A stretch of DNA of 64,000 nt from contig NZ_JAMZFT010000001.1 in NCBI RefSeq assembly GCF_024158125.1, positions 1,054,001-1,118,000 of the forward strand, written 5' to 3'. The position numbers were made by a program, and so were the translations under genes. Below, piece by piece: positions 6,676 through 29,942 of the stretch. Below the pieces are notes generated by a model. The model saw only the letters and a list, made by a program, of their open reading frames with translations. It searched no databases and had not been told where the DNA came from. This DNA comes from Futiania mangrovi (GTDB lineage Bacteria; Pseudomonadota; Alphaproteobacteria; Futianiales; Futianiaceae). The first letter of the stretch is position 1; every line of letters begins with the position of its first letter.

Positions 6676-8067
6676 TTACTCCTCGCTCTCGCCCCCACGG
6701 GCGTCGGCACCGATTCCCAGCATCTTCAGCTTGCGGTGCAGGGCCGAGCGCTCCATCCCGATGAACGACGCGGTGCGCGAGATGTTGCCGTTGAACCGCG
6801 TGATCTGTGCGACGAGATAATCGCGCTCGAACCTCTCACGGGCTTCGCGCAGCGGCAAGGTCATCAGTTGCTCGGTCCCGTTGCCGCGCAGCACGGCAGG
6901 CGCCGCATCAACGATGTCCTGAGGGATGGCCTCGGCCGTGATTGGGCCCTGCTCGCCGCGCGTCAGAATCAGCAGCCGTTCAACCACGTTGCGCAGCTGG
7001 CGCACGTTGCCGGGCCAATCGTAGCTTTGCAGCAGCGCCATGGCGTCGTCGCTCACGTCGCGCTGCGGGAAGCCAGCGCTTTCGGCCAGGGTGCGGGCGA
7101 AATGGCGCACGAGGACGGGGATGTCCTCCCGCCGCTCGGCCAGCGAGGGGATGCGCACGGGCACCACGTTGAGACGGTGAAACAGATCCTCCCGGAACCG
7201 GCCGCCCGCGATCTCCCGCGCAAGGTCGCGGCTCGTCGCGCTGATCACGCGCACGTCCACGCGCACCGGTTCGGCGCCGTTGACGCGGTGGAAGGTCTGG
7301 TCGACGAGGACCCGCAGGATCTTGTTCTGCGTCTCGGGTGGCATGTCACCCACCTCGTCGAGGAAGAGCGTCCCGCCGTGCGCCTGCTCGAAGACGCCGA
7401 TCTTCCTGGGGTGGCCGTCCTGTGCCTCGACGCCGAACAGTTCCGACTCCATCCGCTCCGGCGCGATGGAGGCCGCGTTGATCGCGATGAAGCCGCCGCT
7501 CGCCCGGCGCGAGCCGGCATGAATCATCCGCGCGACCGTCTCCTTGCCCGAACCGGCCGGTCCGGTAACCAGCACGCGGCTTCCCGTGGGGGCGATCTTC
7601 TCGACCATCCCCCGCAGCGCCATCGCAGCCGGGGATTCGCCCACCAGCACATCCGACTGACCGGAGCGCAGACGAAGCTCCGCCACCTCGCGCTTCAGCC
7701 TCGCGGCCTCCAGCGCGCGGGCGATGATCAGCAGAAGCTGGTCGATCTTCAGCGGCTTCTCGATGAAGTCATAGGCGCCGGCGCGTATCGCGGACACCGC
7801 GACCTCGATATTGCCGTGGCCCGATATGATGACGACGGGAACGTCGGGCGTGTTCCGCTTCACCTCCTGTAGCACCTGCAGCCCGTCGAGGCGGGAGCCC
7901 TTGAGCCAGATGTCGAGGAGCACCAGCGACGGCTTGCGCATCGCGATCTCGCGCAGCGCGGTATCGGCATCGCCGGCCGTGCGTGCCTCGTAGCCCTCGT
8001 CCTCCAGGATGCCAGAGATCAGGTCGCGGATGTCCGCTTCGTCGTCGACGATCAGGATGTCCTTCAT
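6676..8067 (-). CDS. ntrX: Nitrogen assimilation response regulator NtrX
   Basis: NtrX is the partner of the NtrY kinase. The 463-residue protein has a receiver domain with acidic pocket VDDE (7-10), phospho-acceptor Asp52 and the switch Lys in FIEKPL. An AAA+ domain with Walker A GPAGSGKE (169-176) follows, and then a Fis-type helix-turn-helix ending GMERSALHRKLKML. The sigma54-contacting GAFTGA loop is missing. After ESELFG comes VEAQDGHPRKIG, as is usual for NtrX, so it probably does not activate sigma54 in the classical way. Its ATG overlaps the ntrY stop as ATGA. Confidence 0.95.
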   Translation of the reverse strand: MKDILIVDDEADIRDLISGILEDEGYEARTAGDADTALREIAMRKPSLVLLDIWLKGSRLDGLQVLQEVKRNTPDVPVVIISGHGNIEVAVSAIRAGAYDFIEKPLKIDQLLLIIARALEAARLKREVAELRLRSGQSDVLVGESPAAMALRGMVEKIAPTGSRVLVTGPAGSGKETVARMIHAGSRRASGGFIAINAASIAPERMESELFGVEAQDGHPRKIGVFEQAHGGTLFLDEVGDMPPETQNKILRVLVDQTFHRVNGAEPVRVDVRVISATSRDLAREIAGGRFREDLFHRLNVVPVRIPSLAERREDIPVLVRHFARTLAESAGFPQRDVSDDAMALLQSYDWPGNVRQLRNVVERLLILTRGEQGPITAEAIPQDIVDAAPAVLRGNGTEQLMTLPLREARERFERDYLVAQITRFNGNISRTASFIGMERSALHRKLKMLGIGADARGGESEE

Positions 8068-10319
8068 GCCACGCTCTCCGAGGGATTGATGCTCCCGGCC
8101 GGGTGCGGCCGGGGAAACACGAGGGTCATGGACGCACCGCGCCCGTCGGGAGCATCGCTGACACGCAGCGTTCCCCCGTGGTCGTCCATTACCTTCTCGA
8201 CAATCGCAAGACCGAGGCCCGTGCCCTTGTCCCGCGTCGTCACATAGGGCTCGGTCAGCCGGTGGCGCAGGTCGCCCGGCAGGCCAGTGCCGTTGTCGAT
8301 GATCCGAACCTCGACAGTCCCGTCGCCAGGCACGATCTCTACCCTTACCTTGCCTTCGTAGCCCGCTCCCTGCCCCTCCTGCTCGGCGCGCGCATGAACC
8401 GCTTCGCCGGCGTTCTTCAGCAGGTTGACGAGGGCCTGGGAGATCAGCCGCTGGTCGCATTGCACGAGCACCGCCTCGTCGGGCGCGATCACGCCGAACA
8501 TGATCTGCGGGTCGCCGACCTGTTGCAGGAAGACCGCCTGGCGCACCACCTCCGTGATGTTCTCCTCCGCCATGACCGGCTTGGGCATGCGCGCGAAGGC
8601 CGAGAACTCGTCCACCATGTGGCGGATGTCGCCCACCTGCCGGACGATCGTGTCCGTGCACTGCTCGAACACCGCGCGGCCCTCGCCGATCTGGGTCGAA
8701 TACTTGCGCTTCAGCCGCTCGGCCGACAGCTGGATGGGCGTCAGCGGGTTCTTGATCTCGTGCGCGATGCGCCGCGCCACGTCCGCCCAGGCCGCCATGC
8801 GCTGCGCAGCCATGAGCCGGGTGACGTCGTCGAGCGTCACGACAAAGCCCGCCGGCCCGTCGGGCGCGGGCTCGGTCGTAACCCGGACCAGCAGTTCGCG
8901 CGCCGTGCCCTCGCGCTCGATCCGCACCTGGTCCGAGGGCTCGAGGTCCGTGCGCAGCCCCTTGCGCACCCCGCGCACGAGGTCCTTCAGCTCCGGCGCC
9001 ACGTCCTCCAGCCGCTGGCCGAGCAGCCGGTCTGGCGGCAGGCCGAGCAGCTTGCACGCCGTGGTGTTCGCAACCTCCACCCGGCCGCCCTGATCCAGGC
9101 CCACCACGCCCGCCGACACGCCGAACAGCACCGCCTCGATGAAGCGGCGGCGGTCGTCTATGCTCCGATTGGCCCGAACAAGCTCGTCGCGCTGCGCCTG
9201 CAACTGCGCGGTCATGCGGTTGAACGCGTTGCTCAGGCCCCCGATCTCGTCCTTCGGCTGGCCTTCGGGGACGCGCACGCGCAAATCCCCCTCCGACACG
9301 CGCATGGCTGCATCGATCAGGCGCCCGACGGGCGTGGCGAGACGGTTGGAGAACCATAGCCCCACCCAGATCGCCGTCATCAGCACCAGGAGCGCGAAGA
9401 TGAAATAGATCAGCGCAAGGGTCAGCTGGACACCCGACCTCTGGCTTTCCAGCCGCTCGTACTGCTCCACCGCGTCGCGCGTGCGCCTGAGATGGTCGAG
9501 CGCGCGCGGATCGAGAAAACGCGCGACATAGAGATAGGCATCGACGAACGCGCCCAGCCGCACGAGGGCGCGGACCTGGGCATCCTCCTCGCTCGTGAGG
9601 ATGACAACCTCCCCCTCCGCAGCCCTGTCCATCGCGCCTGCGGGCGGGGGATCGAACGTCATCGCCATGGCGAGGGACGCCTGAGCGATGATCTCCCCGC
9701 GGCTGTTGATCACGTAGGCCTCAGGCAGGGCGCGCAACGCGGCCTGTGTCGTCACAAGCTCGCCGAACCTGCTCGGATTGTCGTGCAGCAGGTTGGAAGC
9801 CCTGTTCACGTCGGTTGCCATGGCCAACGCGTCGGCGCGAATCACCTGGCGATGCTCGTCGAGATAGGCTTCGGCAACGACCACCGAGTTCGTCACCGCC
9901 TGCCGCACCCGCGTCGAGAACCACGTCTCGAGACCCAGGTTGATCGTGATCGCCGAAAAGACGGCCACCAGGATCGCCGGCACGACCGCGATCAGCGCGA
10001 AAAGCGTGACCAGGCGGATGTGCAGCTGCGAGCCGGCCGAACCCGCACGCCGCGCCATCAGAAGTTGAAAGACCCGCCACCCGATGATGGCTGCCAGCAG
10101 TACCAGCAGCGCGACGTCGAGCACGATCAGCGCAACCGCAAGCTCCGGCTGGGGGCCCAACGGTGTCGCGTCGGTTATGACGAGATAGGTCAGAAATCCG
10201 GAAAACGGCGCCGCAATCGCGATGGCGACCGCCAGTCGCGATCCGAGCCGTGCCTCGGAGAGGCGCCCGAACAGGCTGCGCCTGCCGGGCGGAGTAGCCG
10301 TTTCCGCGCTCGTGGCCAT
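8064..10319 (-). CDS. ntrY: Nitrogen regulation sensor histidine kinase NtrY
   Basis: NtrY is a membrane sensor kinase for NtrX, linked in alphaproteobacteria to nitrogen, redox and envelope responses. The 751-residue protein has N-terminal transmembrane segments, a large periplasmic loop after SAITINLGLETWFSTRV, and a further segment (LALIYFIFALLVLMTAIWVG). HAMP and PAS domains follow, then HisKA with AHEIKNPLTPIQLSAERLKR and the HATPase core. I prefer the ATG at 10319, with GGAG nine bases upstream. The ATG at 10328 lies directly against that GGAG. The stop overlaps the ntrX ATG by four bases. Confidence 0.96.
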   Translation of the reverse strand: MATSAETATPPGRRSLFGRLSEARLGSRLAVAIAIAAPFSGFLTYLVITDATPLGPQPELAVALIVLDVALLVLLAAIIGWRVFQLLMARRAGSAGSQLHIRLVTLFALIAVVPAILVAVFSAITINLGLETWFSTRVRQAVTNSVVVAEAYLDEHRQVIRADALAMATDVNRASNLLHDNPSRFGELVTTQAALRALPEAYVINSRGEIIAQASLAMAMTFDPPPAGAMDRAAEGEVVILTSEEDAQVRALVRLGAFVDAYLYVARFLDPRALDHLRRTRDAVEQYERLESQRSGVQLTLALIYFIFALLVLMTAIWVGLWFSNRLATPVGRLIDAAMRVSEGDLRVRVPEGQPKDEIGGLSNAFNRMTAQLQAQRDELVRANRSIDDRRRFIEAVLFGVSAGVVGLDQGGRVEVANTTACKLLGLPPDRLLGQRLEDVAPELKDLVRGVRKGLRTDLEPSDQVRIEREGTARELLVRVTTEPAPDGPAGFVVTLDDVTRLMAAQRMAAWADVARRIAHEIKNPLTPIQLSAERLKRKYSTQIGEGRAVFEQCTDTIVRQVGDIRHMVDEFSAFARMPKPVMAEENITEVVRQAVFLQQVGDPQIMFGVIAPDEAVLVQCDQRLISQALVNLLKNAGEAVHARAEQEGQGAGYEGKVRVEIVPGDGTVEVRIIDNGTGLPGDLRHRLTEPYVTTRDKGTGLGLAIVEKVMDDHGGTLRVSDAPDGRGASMTLVFPRPHPAGSINPSESVA

Positions 10320-10402
10320 CAGGGGCATCTCCGTTGCGGGCCCGCATCACCCCGAGAGCAGGCCGCCTGCCCCGGTTGCAGCCCCTCTGTTGCGGCAATG
10401 CC

Positions 10403-10416
10403 GGCAACCTGTTGCC
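10403..10416. repeat. 14-bp palindrome in the ntrC-ntrY gap
   Basis: GGCAACCTGTTGCC is a perfect 6-bp inverted repeat around CT, in the gap between the ntrC stop and the ntrY start. The two-base centre is too short for a good RNA hairpin, so a protein-binding operator is likelier than a terminator. No clear -10/-35 pair lies beside it. Confidence 0.35.
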
Positions 10417-10424
10417 AAGTTACA

Positions 10425-11897
10425 TCACTTGATGCCGCGGACCACGCGAATGTCAAGGTCGCGGATCTTCTTTCGCAACGTGTTCCGGTTGATGCCCAGC
10501 AGGTCCGCAGCGCGGATCTGATTGCCCCGGGTCGCGGCGAGGGAGGCCGTGATCAGCGGAAGCTCCACCTCGCGCAGGATACGGTCGTAGAGGCCTGCGG
10601 GCGGCAACTCCTCCCCATGCGCGGCGAAATACCGGTTGAGATGCCATTCGACCGCAGCGCCGATGCTCTCGCCGTGTCCCCCGTCGCCAGCCGGCTCTCC
10701 GCCCTCGCCATCACCGGCAGGCGCAGCGGGCGGGCGTTCGGAGAACAGTTCCTCCTCGACGATCTGCGCCGTGATGACATCTTCCGAATAGAGGGCGGCG
10801 AGCCGGCGGACGAGGTTCTCCAGCTCCCGGACATTGCCCGGCCAGCGGTGGCGCTTGAGGACGCCGAGGGCGCCCGCGTCGAGGGACTTTGCCGGCAGGC
10901 CCTCGCTCTGGGCGCGGCCGAGGAAGTGACGCACGAGATCGGGCACGTCATCCAGCCGTTCGCGCAGCGGGGGCATCCGGATCGGCACCACGTTGAGCCG
11001 GTAATAGAGGTCTTCGCGGAACAGGCCCTGGCCGATCAGCTGCCGAAGGTCGCGGTGCGTTGCGGCGACGATGCGCACGTCGGTGCGGATGGGAGTGCGT
11101 CCGCCCACGGTCGTGTATTCGCCTTCCTGCAGCACGCGCAGCAGGCGGGTCTGTGCCTCCGGCGGCATATCCCCGATCTCGTCGAGGAAGAGCGTGCCGC
11201 CCTCCGCCTGCTCGAACCGGCCCGTGGAGCGGGTCTGGGCGCCGGTGAAGGCCCCCTTCTCGTGCCCGAAAAGCTCGCTCTCTATCAGCTCGCGCGGGAT
11301 CGCCGCCATGTTGACCGCGACGAAGGGTCCGCTGCGCCGCTTGCCGTAATCGTGCAGGGCGCGCGCGACCAGCTCCTTGCCCGTCCCCGACTCCCCCGTG
11401 ATCATCACCGAGAGGTCGGTCTGCAGCAGTCGCGCCATGACGCGGTAGATGTCCTGCATGGCCGGCGACCTGCCGATCAGGGGCAGCCGCTCCTCCTCCG
11501 GCTCTGCCGCGGTGCCGCCTTCCCGGCTGTGAGGCACCGTCAGCCCGCGCCGCACCACGCCGATCAGTTCGTTGAGGTCGAAGGGCTTCGGCAGGTACTC
11601 GTACGCCCCCCGCTCCGCCGCGCGGATCGCCGTCAGTACCGTGTTCTGCGCGCTCATCACCACGATGGGCAGATCGGGGCGCAGCTTGCGGATCTTCGGC
11701 AGCAGGTCGAGCGCGTTCTCGTCCGGCATCACCACGTCGGTGACGATGATGTCGCCCTCGCCCTCCGACACCCAGCGCCAGAGGGTCGATGCGTTTCCGG
11801 TCGCACGGACGTTGAAGCCCGCGCGGACCAGGGCCTGGTTGAGGACCGTGCGGATCGCGGTGTCGTCGTCGGCAACGAGAACGGTGGCTTCGCTCAT
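10425..11897 (-). CDS. ntrC: Nitrogen response regulator NtrC
   Basis: NtrC is the sigma54-dependent activator of nitrogen assimilation genes, phosphorylated by NtrB. The 490-residue protein has a receiver with DDD at 10-12 and Asp54. The AAA+ domain has Walker A GESGTGKE (168-175), the intact GAFTGA loop (215-220) and Walker [12 protein letters not shown]. It ends with a Fis-type DNA-binding helix pair ([13 protein letters not shown]). The chosen ATG at 11897 has GAGGAG eight bases upstream. A GTG at 11906 overlapping the ntrB stop is less likely. The intact GAFTGA contrasts with ntrX in the same block. Confidence 0.97.
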
Positions 11898-11902
11898 TGG
11901 CG

Positions 11903-12994
11903 TCACTCCTCGGGCTGCAGCATGGGCAGCAGCACGCGGAAGAGTGTGCGGCCGTCCCTGCGCTCATGCTCCACGATGCCGCCATGGTCGCCGATGATCT
12001 TGGCAACCAGCGCGAGGCCTAGGCCCGTGCCGCGCGGCTTCGATGTCACGAAGGGGTCGAACAGATGGGGCAGCAGGTCCTCCGGCACGCCGGGGCCATT
12101 GTCCTGGACCGTCACCTCGAACGGCAGGCCCTGGCGCCCCCGCCCACCCGGCAGCGACAGGCGCACGCCCGGCCTGAAGGCAGTCGAGACCTGGATCTCC
12201 CCGCCACGGGCCGGCACGGCCTCGGCGGCATTCTTCAGCAGGTTCAGGAAGACCTGGATCAGCTGGTCACGGTCGCCCAGCACCGGCGGCAACGAGGGGT
12301 CGTAGCTCTCCACGATCCGGATGTCGCGTGCAAAACCGTTCTCGGCGAGGCGGCGGACGTGATCCAGCACCTCGTGGATGTTCACGGCGGTCCTGCGGGG
12401 CGGGCGGGCGTCGGAGAAGACATCCATCCGGTCCATGATCTGGCAGATGCGGTCGGTCTCGTCGCAGATCAGGCGGGTCAGCGGCCTGTCGGCGGCGGGA
12501 GCCGACTGTTCCAGCAATTGCGCGGCGCCGCGAATACCGGAGAGCGGGTTCTTCACCTCGTGCGCGAGCATCGCCGCCATGGCGGAGACGGAGCGCGCGG
12601 CCCCGCGATGGGTGAGCTGGCGGTCCATCTTCTCGGCGATGGAGCGCTCCTGGATCAGGATCAGCAGGCGGTCGGGCAGTTCGGGGACCGGCGCCACCTG
12701 CACGTCGACCGTGCGCACCGGCGTGCGCGGCGTGCCGAGGTGGAGGCCGTATTCGCTGACGGTCAGCGCGCCCTGACGCACCTGCTCGACAAGACCGAGG
12801 AGCGGCGTGTCCTCGGCCACCAGTGTCTCGAGCGTGTGGCGCGCGAGTGCCGCGGCGCTCAGTGAAAAGAACACCTCCGCCGCCATGTTCGCAGCGACGA
12901 TCGCATTGCCGCGGTCGACCACGAGGATCGGCAGCGGAATGGCCTGGACGATGGCGGTGGACAATTGGCCGGCGTTTCCTGTCAGCGCGATCAT
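11903..12994 (-). CDS. ntrB: Nitrogen regulation sensor kinase/phosphatase NtrB
   Basis: NtrB is the cytosolic PII-controlled kinase and phosphatase of NtrC. The 363-residue protein has no membrane segment. It has an N-terminal PAS domain ([18 protein letters not shown]), the HisKA box [19 protein letters not shown] with phosphoryl-accepting His145, an N box NLLKNAAEA, and G boxes DNGPGVPE and GTGLGLALV. Its ATG overlaps the dusB stop as ATGA, and ntrC starts five bases after its stop, so dusB-ntrB-ntrC are one transcript. Nearby PII (glnB) is not in the window. Confidence 0.96.
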
Positions 12995-25600: not shown

Positions 25601-26446
25601 TCAGAGCGACTTGGCCAGCCGGTCGAAGGCGGTGAGTTGCGCCAGCATCGCGTCCATCTGGTCGAGCGGCACCATGTTCGGCCCGTCGGATGGGGCCGTG
25701 TCCGGCTCCTGGTGCGTCTCCATGAAGACCGCCGCCACGCCGATCGAGACCGCCGCGCGGGCGAGCGTGCCGACGAAGCGCCGGTCGCCGCCCGAGGTCG
25801 CCCCCTGCCCGCCCGGCTGCTGCACCGAATGGGTCGCATCGAATACCACCGGGCAGGCACATTGTTCCTTCATGATGGGAAGCGCGCGCATGTCGGAAAC
25901 GAGCGTGTTGTAGCCGAAGGACACGCCCCGCTCGCACGCCATCACGTTGGGATTGCCCGCGTCGCGCACCTTGGCGACGACGTTCTTCATGTCCCAGGGC
26001 GCGAGGAACTGGCCCTTCTTGACGTTCACGGCCTTTCCCGTTTTCGCCGCTGCGACCAGCAGGTCGGTCTGGCGGCACAGGAAGGCCGGGATCTGCAGCA
26101 CGTCGACGACCGCACCGGCAATGGCGCATTGCTCCTCGGTATGGACGTCTGTCAGGACCGGCATGCCGGTTTCCTTCCGCACCTCCTCGAAGATCGGCAG
26201 CGCAAGCTCCAGCCCGATGCCGCGGGCGGAATTGGCGCTCGTCCGGTTGGCCTTGTCGAAGGAGGACTTGTAGATGATCCCGACGCCGTGCCTCTCGCCC
26301 AGCTTGCGCAGCGCATCGGCCATGAACAGCGCGTGGTCGCGGCCCTCCATCGCGCACGGACCCGCGATGATGGCAAGCGGCAGGTCATTGCCGATCTCGA
26401 TGTTGCCGACGCGGACGGTGCTGGCGGTGCCGGTTTGGGCGGTCAT
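25601..26446 (-). CDS. kdsA: 3-deoxy-8-phosphooctulonate synthase (KDO-8-P synthase)
   Basis: KdsA condenses PEP and arabinose 5-phosphate to KDO-8-phosphate for the lipopolysaccharide inner core. The 281-residue protein shows IAGPCAMEGRDHA, YKSSFDKANRTS, TDVHTEEQC, VKKGQFLAPWDM, FDATHSVQQPGGQG and a metal- or substrate-binding MVPLDQMDAML tail. The start at 26446 has AGGGGA eight bases upstream. Upstream in-frame codons are not homologous. PEP comes from enolase encoded next to it. KDO-lipid genes themselves are not in the window, but lipid A genes are at 46456-50798. Confidence 0.97.
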   Translation of the reverse strand: MTAQTGTASTVRVGNIEIGNDLPLAIIAGPCAMEGRDHALFMADALRKLGERHGVGIIYKSSFDKANRTSANSARGIGLELALPIFEEVRKETGMPVLTDVHTEEQCAIAGAVVDVLQIPAFLCRQTDLLVAAAKTGKAVNVKKGQFLAPWDMKNVVAKVRDAGNPNVMACERGVSFGYNTLVSDMRALPIMKEQCACPVVFDATHSVQQPGGQGATSGGDRRFVGTLARAAVSIGVAAVFMETHQEPDTAPSDGPNMVPLDQMDAMLAQLTAFDRLAKSL

Positions 26447-26565: not shown

Positions 26566-26584
26566 GTTTAAGCAGCGGTTAAAC
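26566..26584. promoter_or_regulatory. CtrA-type box upstream of the orphan histidine kinase
   Basis: The sequence is GTTTAA, seven bases, TTAAAC. It contains an exact TTAA-N7-TTAA at 26568-26582, the consensus bound by the alphaproteobacterial cell-cycle regulator CtrA. It is also a perfect 6-bp inverted repeat. TTAA is rare in this GC-rich DNA. The box lies 91 bases before the kinase ATG at 26676 and 120 bases before the divergent kdsA start, in a 229-base gap that otherwise shows no structure I can name. Confidence 0.6.

Positions 26585-26675: not shown

Positions 26676-28169
<1,494 letters not shown>

Positions 28170-28307: not shown

Positions 28308-29942
<1,635 letters not shown>

Follow-up and report, generated by a model that had tools for sequence, protein, structure and literature searches.

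The window, a stretch of 64,000 nucleotides of the Futiania mangrovi genome, contains an inverted repeat at 26566–26584 that is a predicted CtrA binding site for the promoter of an orphan sensor histidine kinase. Some form of CtrA control of this kinase is very likely, judging from the DNA itself. The fuller reading is that the box, located in the promoter region from which kdsA and the kinase gene diverge, is a true CtrA full site, and that the kinase, placed under CtrA, feeds back on the circuit; this is the reading towards which we lean.

The box and its genomic surroundings

The element, GTTTAAGCAGCGGTTAAAC, was located by pattern search, is assigned to no strand and reads as GTTTAA-N7-TTAAAC. 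An exact TTAA-N7-TTAA core, with both half-sites perfect, occupies 26568–26582, and the outer arms GTTTAA and TTAAAC form a perfect 6-bp inverted repeat. Between the end of the box and the ATG of the kinase gene (26676) lie 91 bases; letters, repeat and distance are all as the original prediction gave them. It also had the box facing kdsA, and this is confirmed. The kdsA gene, encoding KDO-8-phosphate synthase (25601–26446, minus strand), diverges from the kinase across the box, and its likely start at 26446 is about 120 nt away. The box itself is the single match to TTAA-N7-TTAA in the window, where shuffled sequences give an expectation of 0.01. A sigma-70 scan found no sigma-70-like promoter beside it. 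In activator-dependent promoters, the −35 and −10 elements are often poor.

The CtrA full site is TTAA-N7-TTAA, with a spacer of 6 as a known working variant (PMC6180460), and the Hyphomonas ChIP-seq consensus is TTAA-N7-TTAAC (PMC7200025). Comparison with the full sites of Caulobacter, Hyphomonas and Rhodobacter (PMC6180460, PMC7200025) shows exact half-sites and spacing, an intergenic position and a genome that has CtrA. The box differs from known full sites in its symmetric outer bases, which lengthen the arms to 6 bp, and in being a predicted site, known from its sequence. The second TTAA is followed by A here, whereas C is found at this position in the Hyphomonas consensus.

The kinase gene (26676–28169, plus strand) is convergent with pyrG, encoding CTP synthase (28308–29936, minus strand). 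Besides kdsA and pyrG, the neighbourhood contains pdhA, ftsB/divIC, eno, secG, tpiA and a PpiD/SurA-like gene. There is no response-regulator gene among the neighbours, and the kinase is thus unpaired, as originally claimed. At about 7600–12600 of the window, a pair of HisKA kinase genes is clustered with a pair of receiver genes, and the group resembles ntrB/ntrC and ntrY/ntrX.

In 21 of 29 other alphaproteobacteria sampled, kdsA directly follows pyrG on the same strand; in the remaining eight, the pyrG motif was not found within 1.5 kb of kdsA. Only the window genome has a kinase between the two genes, on the opposite strand. Given the adjacency of pyrG and kdsA elsewhere and the kinase and box lying between them here, the arrangement looks lineage-specific. 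Upstream of kdsA, an exact box is absent from all 29, which ties the box to the kinase, and an ancestral kdsA element was rejected on this ground. Kinase and box appear to have entered this position together, by an acquisition or a rearrangement specific to the lineage. A search of about 390 alphaproteobacterial genomes turned up no orthologue of the kinase, the best match being 37% identical and not syntenic. This nearest homologue (in G004) was rejected as an orthologue, since it neighbours a glutamate synthase gene instead of kdsA and is without an exact box.

CtrA sites and circuit genes across the genome

An exact-pattern search of the 3.39-Mb genome (G000) identified 12 TTAA-N7-TTAA sites. 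When spacers of 1 to 24 were searched together, 44 sites were found, and the 12 with a spacer of 7 compare with a mean of 1.39 and a maximum of 4 at the other lengths (Poisson P ~3e-8). Restricted to spacers of 4 to 10, spacer 7 accounts for 12 of 17 sites (P 2e-7). All 12 sites are intergenic, compared to four of eight matches for the reversed control AATT-N7-AATT (Fisher P 0.014). Chance would supply about 1.4 of the 12, and the excess of spacer 7 over other spacers places about 10 or 11 of them above background. A Caulobacterales-like genome (G062) is enriched for both spacer 7 and spacer 6, with 10 and 8 of 24 sites, and in Keguizhuia (G407), from outside the class, the listed sites are spread near-evenly over spacers 5–9. 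The window genome has a single N6 site against 12 with N7, while G062 has 8 against 10, which suggests that the preferred CtrA spacing differs between lineages.

Signalling or motility genes neighbour seven of the 12 sites (binomial P 2e-6 to 7e-4, for an assumed background of 6–15% such genes among flanking genes). Upstream of cckA is TTAACCATTCGTTAA, a textbook site that is closer to the Caulobacter form than any other CtrA site in the genome (L004/L038, G000:C1:275813–278420). Another site is positioned between chpT and cheA (L003, G000:C1:131154–134168), with cheA directly after chpT. This chpT–cheA site is about 5 kb from ctrA, and the relay genes are inside a chemotaxis cluster. Further sites precede motA (L006), a sigma-54 activator response regulator (L001) and a DivJ-like kinase (L009/L025), and one (L011, G000:C3:250924) has a lone receiver-domain gene (C3:250454–250798) on one side and a MaoC-like gene on the other. 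Besides the window box, L011 is the only one of the 12 with the extended GTTTAA-N7-TTAAAC arms, and its lone receiver might be a partner for an orphan kinase. The other five sites are found at an EamA transporter gene, 3' of an aldehyde dehydrogenase gene, at the convergent 3' ends of a kinase gene (L027) and a methyltransferase gene, at a small membrane protein beside a molybdopterin oxidoreductase, and at a PAS_5 protein. The convergent site (L027/L008, G000:C2:658580) overlaps the stop codon of the kinase, one of the FGPLG type described below, where no promoter is expected. As a set, the 12 exact sites sketch a core CtrA regulon of this genome.

The ctrA gene, on whose presence the original prediction depended, is encoded. 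Its product shares 82% identity with the Caulobacter query, and the C-terminal DNA-binding half is near-identical, with long identical runs. DivK is also encoded, with 79% identity. Both queries were Caulobacter protein sequences, and the high identities make the assignments safe. NCBIfam models identified CckA (L004, 773 bits) and ChpT (L003, 187 bits), each with a score below the strict species-group cut-off of its model.

The kinase and its place in the PdhS-like group

The kinase is 497 aa long and was assigned to the PdhS-like (FGPLG) group from its open reading frame, domain search, signature and tree position. It is composed of a short N-terminal membrane segment, HAMP, PAS, HisKA and HATPase_c, in that order, all read from the plus strand. 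Hydropathy places a hydrophobic stretch at about residues 12–63 (26709–26864), probably a pair of membrane helices separated by next to no periplasmic loop. Domain search positioned HAMP at residues 82–125 (26919–27050) and PAS at residues 133–233 (27072–27374), and the PAS domain is likely the sensory module. The HisKA domain (27447–27656; domain search and signature) has His268 (codon 27477–27479) as phospho-acceptor and carries the signature FGPLG-x-x-KY-x-x-YA-x-x-I-x-x-SG-x-HLL; its end is divergent, DILQIAKIDGG compared to DILDLSKIEAG. In HATPase_c (27804–28130; domain search and sequence), the N box (LLKNAVQHT), DMGQG and GAGLGLPL are intact, so the kinase looks catalytically competent.

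The broad PdhS-like signature SHELRTPLN...FGPLG...Y..YA..I..SG.HLL.LLNDIL is present. However, FGPLG was rejected as proof of PleC or DivJ identity, since nine kinases of the genome share this type of signature (L019, L021, L022, L024–L027, L029 and L032). Among the kinases examined in G062, two have it, DivJ and PleC, the latter recognised through its HisKA sequence and length and not as a named record. Nine PdhS-type HisKA kinases in one 3.4-Mb genome, compared to two in G062, is a marked expansion.

A tree of 41 HisKA–HATPase regions places the window kinase inside the FGPLG clade, with 100/100 support against other HisKA kinases. Within the clade it has a long branch, surrounded by generic alphaproteobacterial kinases, and is placed neither in the DivJ group nor beside PleC. 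Its joining of another long branch (own_L032) might be an artefact, and a rerun without own_L032 left it outside both DivJ and PleC. The DivJ model gives the kinase 160 bits, compared to 254 for L025, the DivJ-like kinase of the same genome, and 443 for the DivJ of G062. On the PdhS model (NF041593) it scores 170 bits versus 263 for L026, with which it does not group in the tree, and both scores are below those of most paralogues. Its N terminus is short, and a long sensory one would be expected of PleC. AU tests reject none of the forced groupings (DivJ, P 0.08; PleC, P 0.12; PdhS-like L026, P 0.055), and close kinship to these kinases is therefore unsupported rather than excluded. The original description of a PleC/DivJ-like kinase is thus correct as to the FGPLG signature and the broad PdhS-like group, but PleC or DivJ identity is not supported; placement outside the PleC/DivJ clade, which had been named as evidence against it, applies in part. 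The kinase is related to, yet distinct from, the kinases acting on the CtrA circuit.

The best DivJ candidate of the genome is L025 (from about C3:70334), which has PAS and a PdhS-type HisKA and falls with DivJ in the tree (98/74 for the DivJ-like pair, 94/78 with the G062 DivJ). Its own exact TTAA-N7-TTAA overlaps the start of the open frame. The two kinases are alike in having an exact box just upstream and a PdhS-type HisKA with PAS, and differ in that only L025 groups with DivJ. With the PdhS family (PleC, DivJ, PdhS1 and PdhS2; PMC7003649), the window kinase shares the HisKA signature FGPLG-Y-Y-I-SG-HLL-LxNDIL, the conserved His and Thr of SHELRTP and a C-terminal HATPase. It is set apart by its divergent HisKA end, its lone long branch and the lack of an assignable PleC, DivJ or PdhS orthology.

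Probable CtrA control and possible feedback

The enrichment of spacer 7, the intergenic sites, the company of cckA, cheA, motA and the DivJ-like kinase, and the presence of CtrA and DivK make CtrA control of the kinase promoter likely. The original claim that the box controls the kinase stands to this extent, while "controls" was too strong a word for a predicted site. From the computed site and its statistics, we infer that CtrA~P would bind the box and set transcription of the kinase gene, probably as an activator from near −35, and it may possibly drive kdsA from the same box. The kinase would act as a membrane-anchored PAS sensor with a HisKA of the kind that communicates with DivK-like receivers, and would probably phosphorylate or dephosphorylate DivK or another single-domain receiver. 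Its output may then return to the CckA–ChpT–CtrA relay, alongside the separate DivJ-like kinase with its own box. This partner and this loop we infer from the circuit genes, domain architecture and broad family placement, which were likewise computed. The PdhS-type HisKA makes DivK a plausible partner, with which a loop onto CckA–ChpT–CtrA would close, and feedback through the kinase is plausible.

CtrA might instead control a kinase that works outside DivK–CckA–CtrA as an ordinary output of CtrA, for example a sensor for the envelope or for motility that is paired with a different response regulator. Nine FGPLG kinases are too many all to act on DivK, and the tree position, outside DivJ, beside neither PleC nor the PdhS-like paralogue and among generic kinases, agrees with such a role, as do DivJ (160) and PdhS (170) scores that are low relative to the paralogues. 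However, the kinase has kept the HisKA signature typical of kinases that interact with DivK, and feedback via kinases of this kind is common in CtrA circuits (PMC2877005, PMC4433202); we consider an output outside the circuit rather unlikely.

Two further explanations concern the box. It may serve mainly kdsA, with CtrA timing KDO synthesis and the kinase merely divergent. The kinase separates kdsA from pyrG, so kdsA needs its own promoter; its divergent start is close to the box, the half-site on its strand is TTAACC, like the TTAACCAT variant, and in Rhodobacter sphaeroides two divergent promoters can share one CtrA site (PMC6180460). Yet the exact box is missing from the kdsA upstream regions of all 29 other genomes, and the other sites of this genome favour signalling and motility genes, making a role primarily in kdsA expression highly improbable. 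It is also improbable, though a little less so, that the box is an AT-rich palindrome arisen by chance or an operator for some other dyad-binding regulator, with CtrA not bound. Random expectation does account for about 1.4 of the 12 sites, and the GTTTAA/TTAAAC arms, which exceed the usual CtrA core, recur at one other site of the 12, L011. The spacer specificity, intergenic placement and functional company of the 12 sites argue against this, and L011 also flanks a response-regulator gene.

CtrA-dependent feedback through the window kinase has close parallels. In Sinorhizobium meliloti, CtrA directly activates divJ and binds cbrA (PMC4433202). The likeness lies in a CtrA site 5' of a PdhS-type HisKA kinase and in predicted feedback through the DivK module; the window kinase differs in not being a DivJ orthologue and in its position between pyrG and kdsA, and its partner is a predicted one. 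A comparative study predicted that CtrA controls divJ, pleC or divK in a large cluster of alphaproteobacteria and proposed that feedback persists as its connections are rewired (PMC2877005). Feedback from CtrA onto kinases of the PdhS family is thus already known, and the window kinase is a new example of known wiring. The Hyphomonas study concluded that the CtrA pathway must receive input from further kinases besides DivJ and PleC (PMC7200025), and the window kinase, from a genome without a close relative among those compared, is a concrete candidate for one of them. In this bacterium, going by its sequence, CtrA probably has a further signalling kinase under its control. More tentatively, and with some doubt, placing a PdhS-like kinase and a CtrA site between pyrG and kdsA may have given this deep-branching alphaproteobacterial lineage a second CtrA-controlled DivK input, parallel to the DivJ-like kinase. 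CtrA feedback would then be able to run through one or another member of an expanded PdhS-like kinase set, matching the proposal that the feedback is kept while the wiring moves (PMC2877005).
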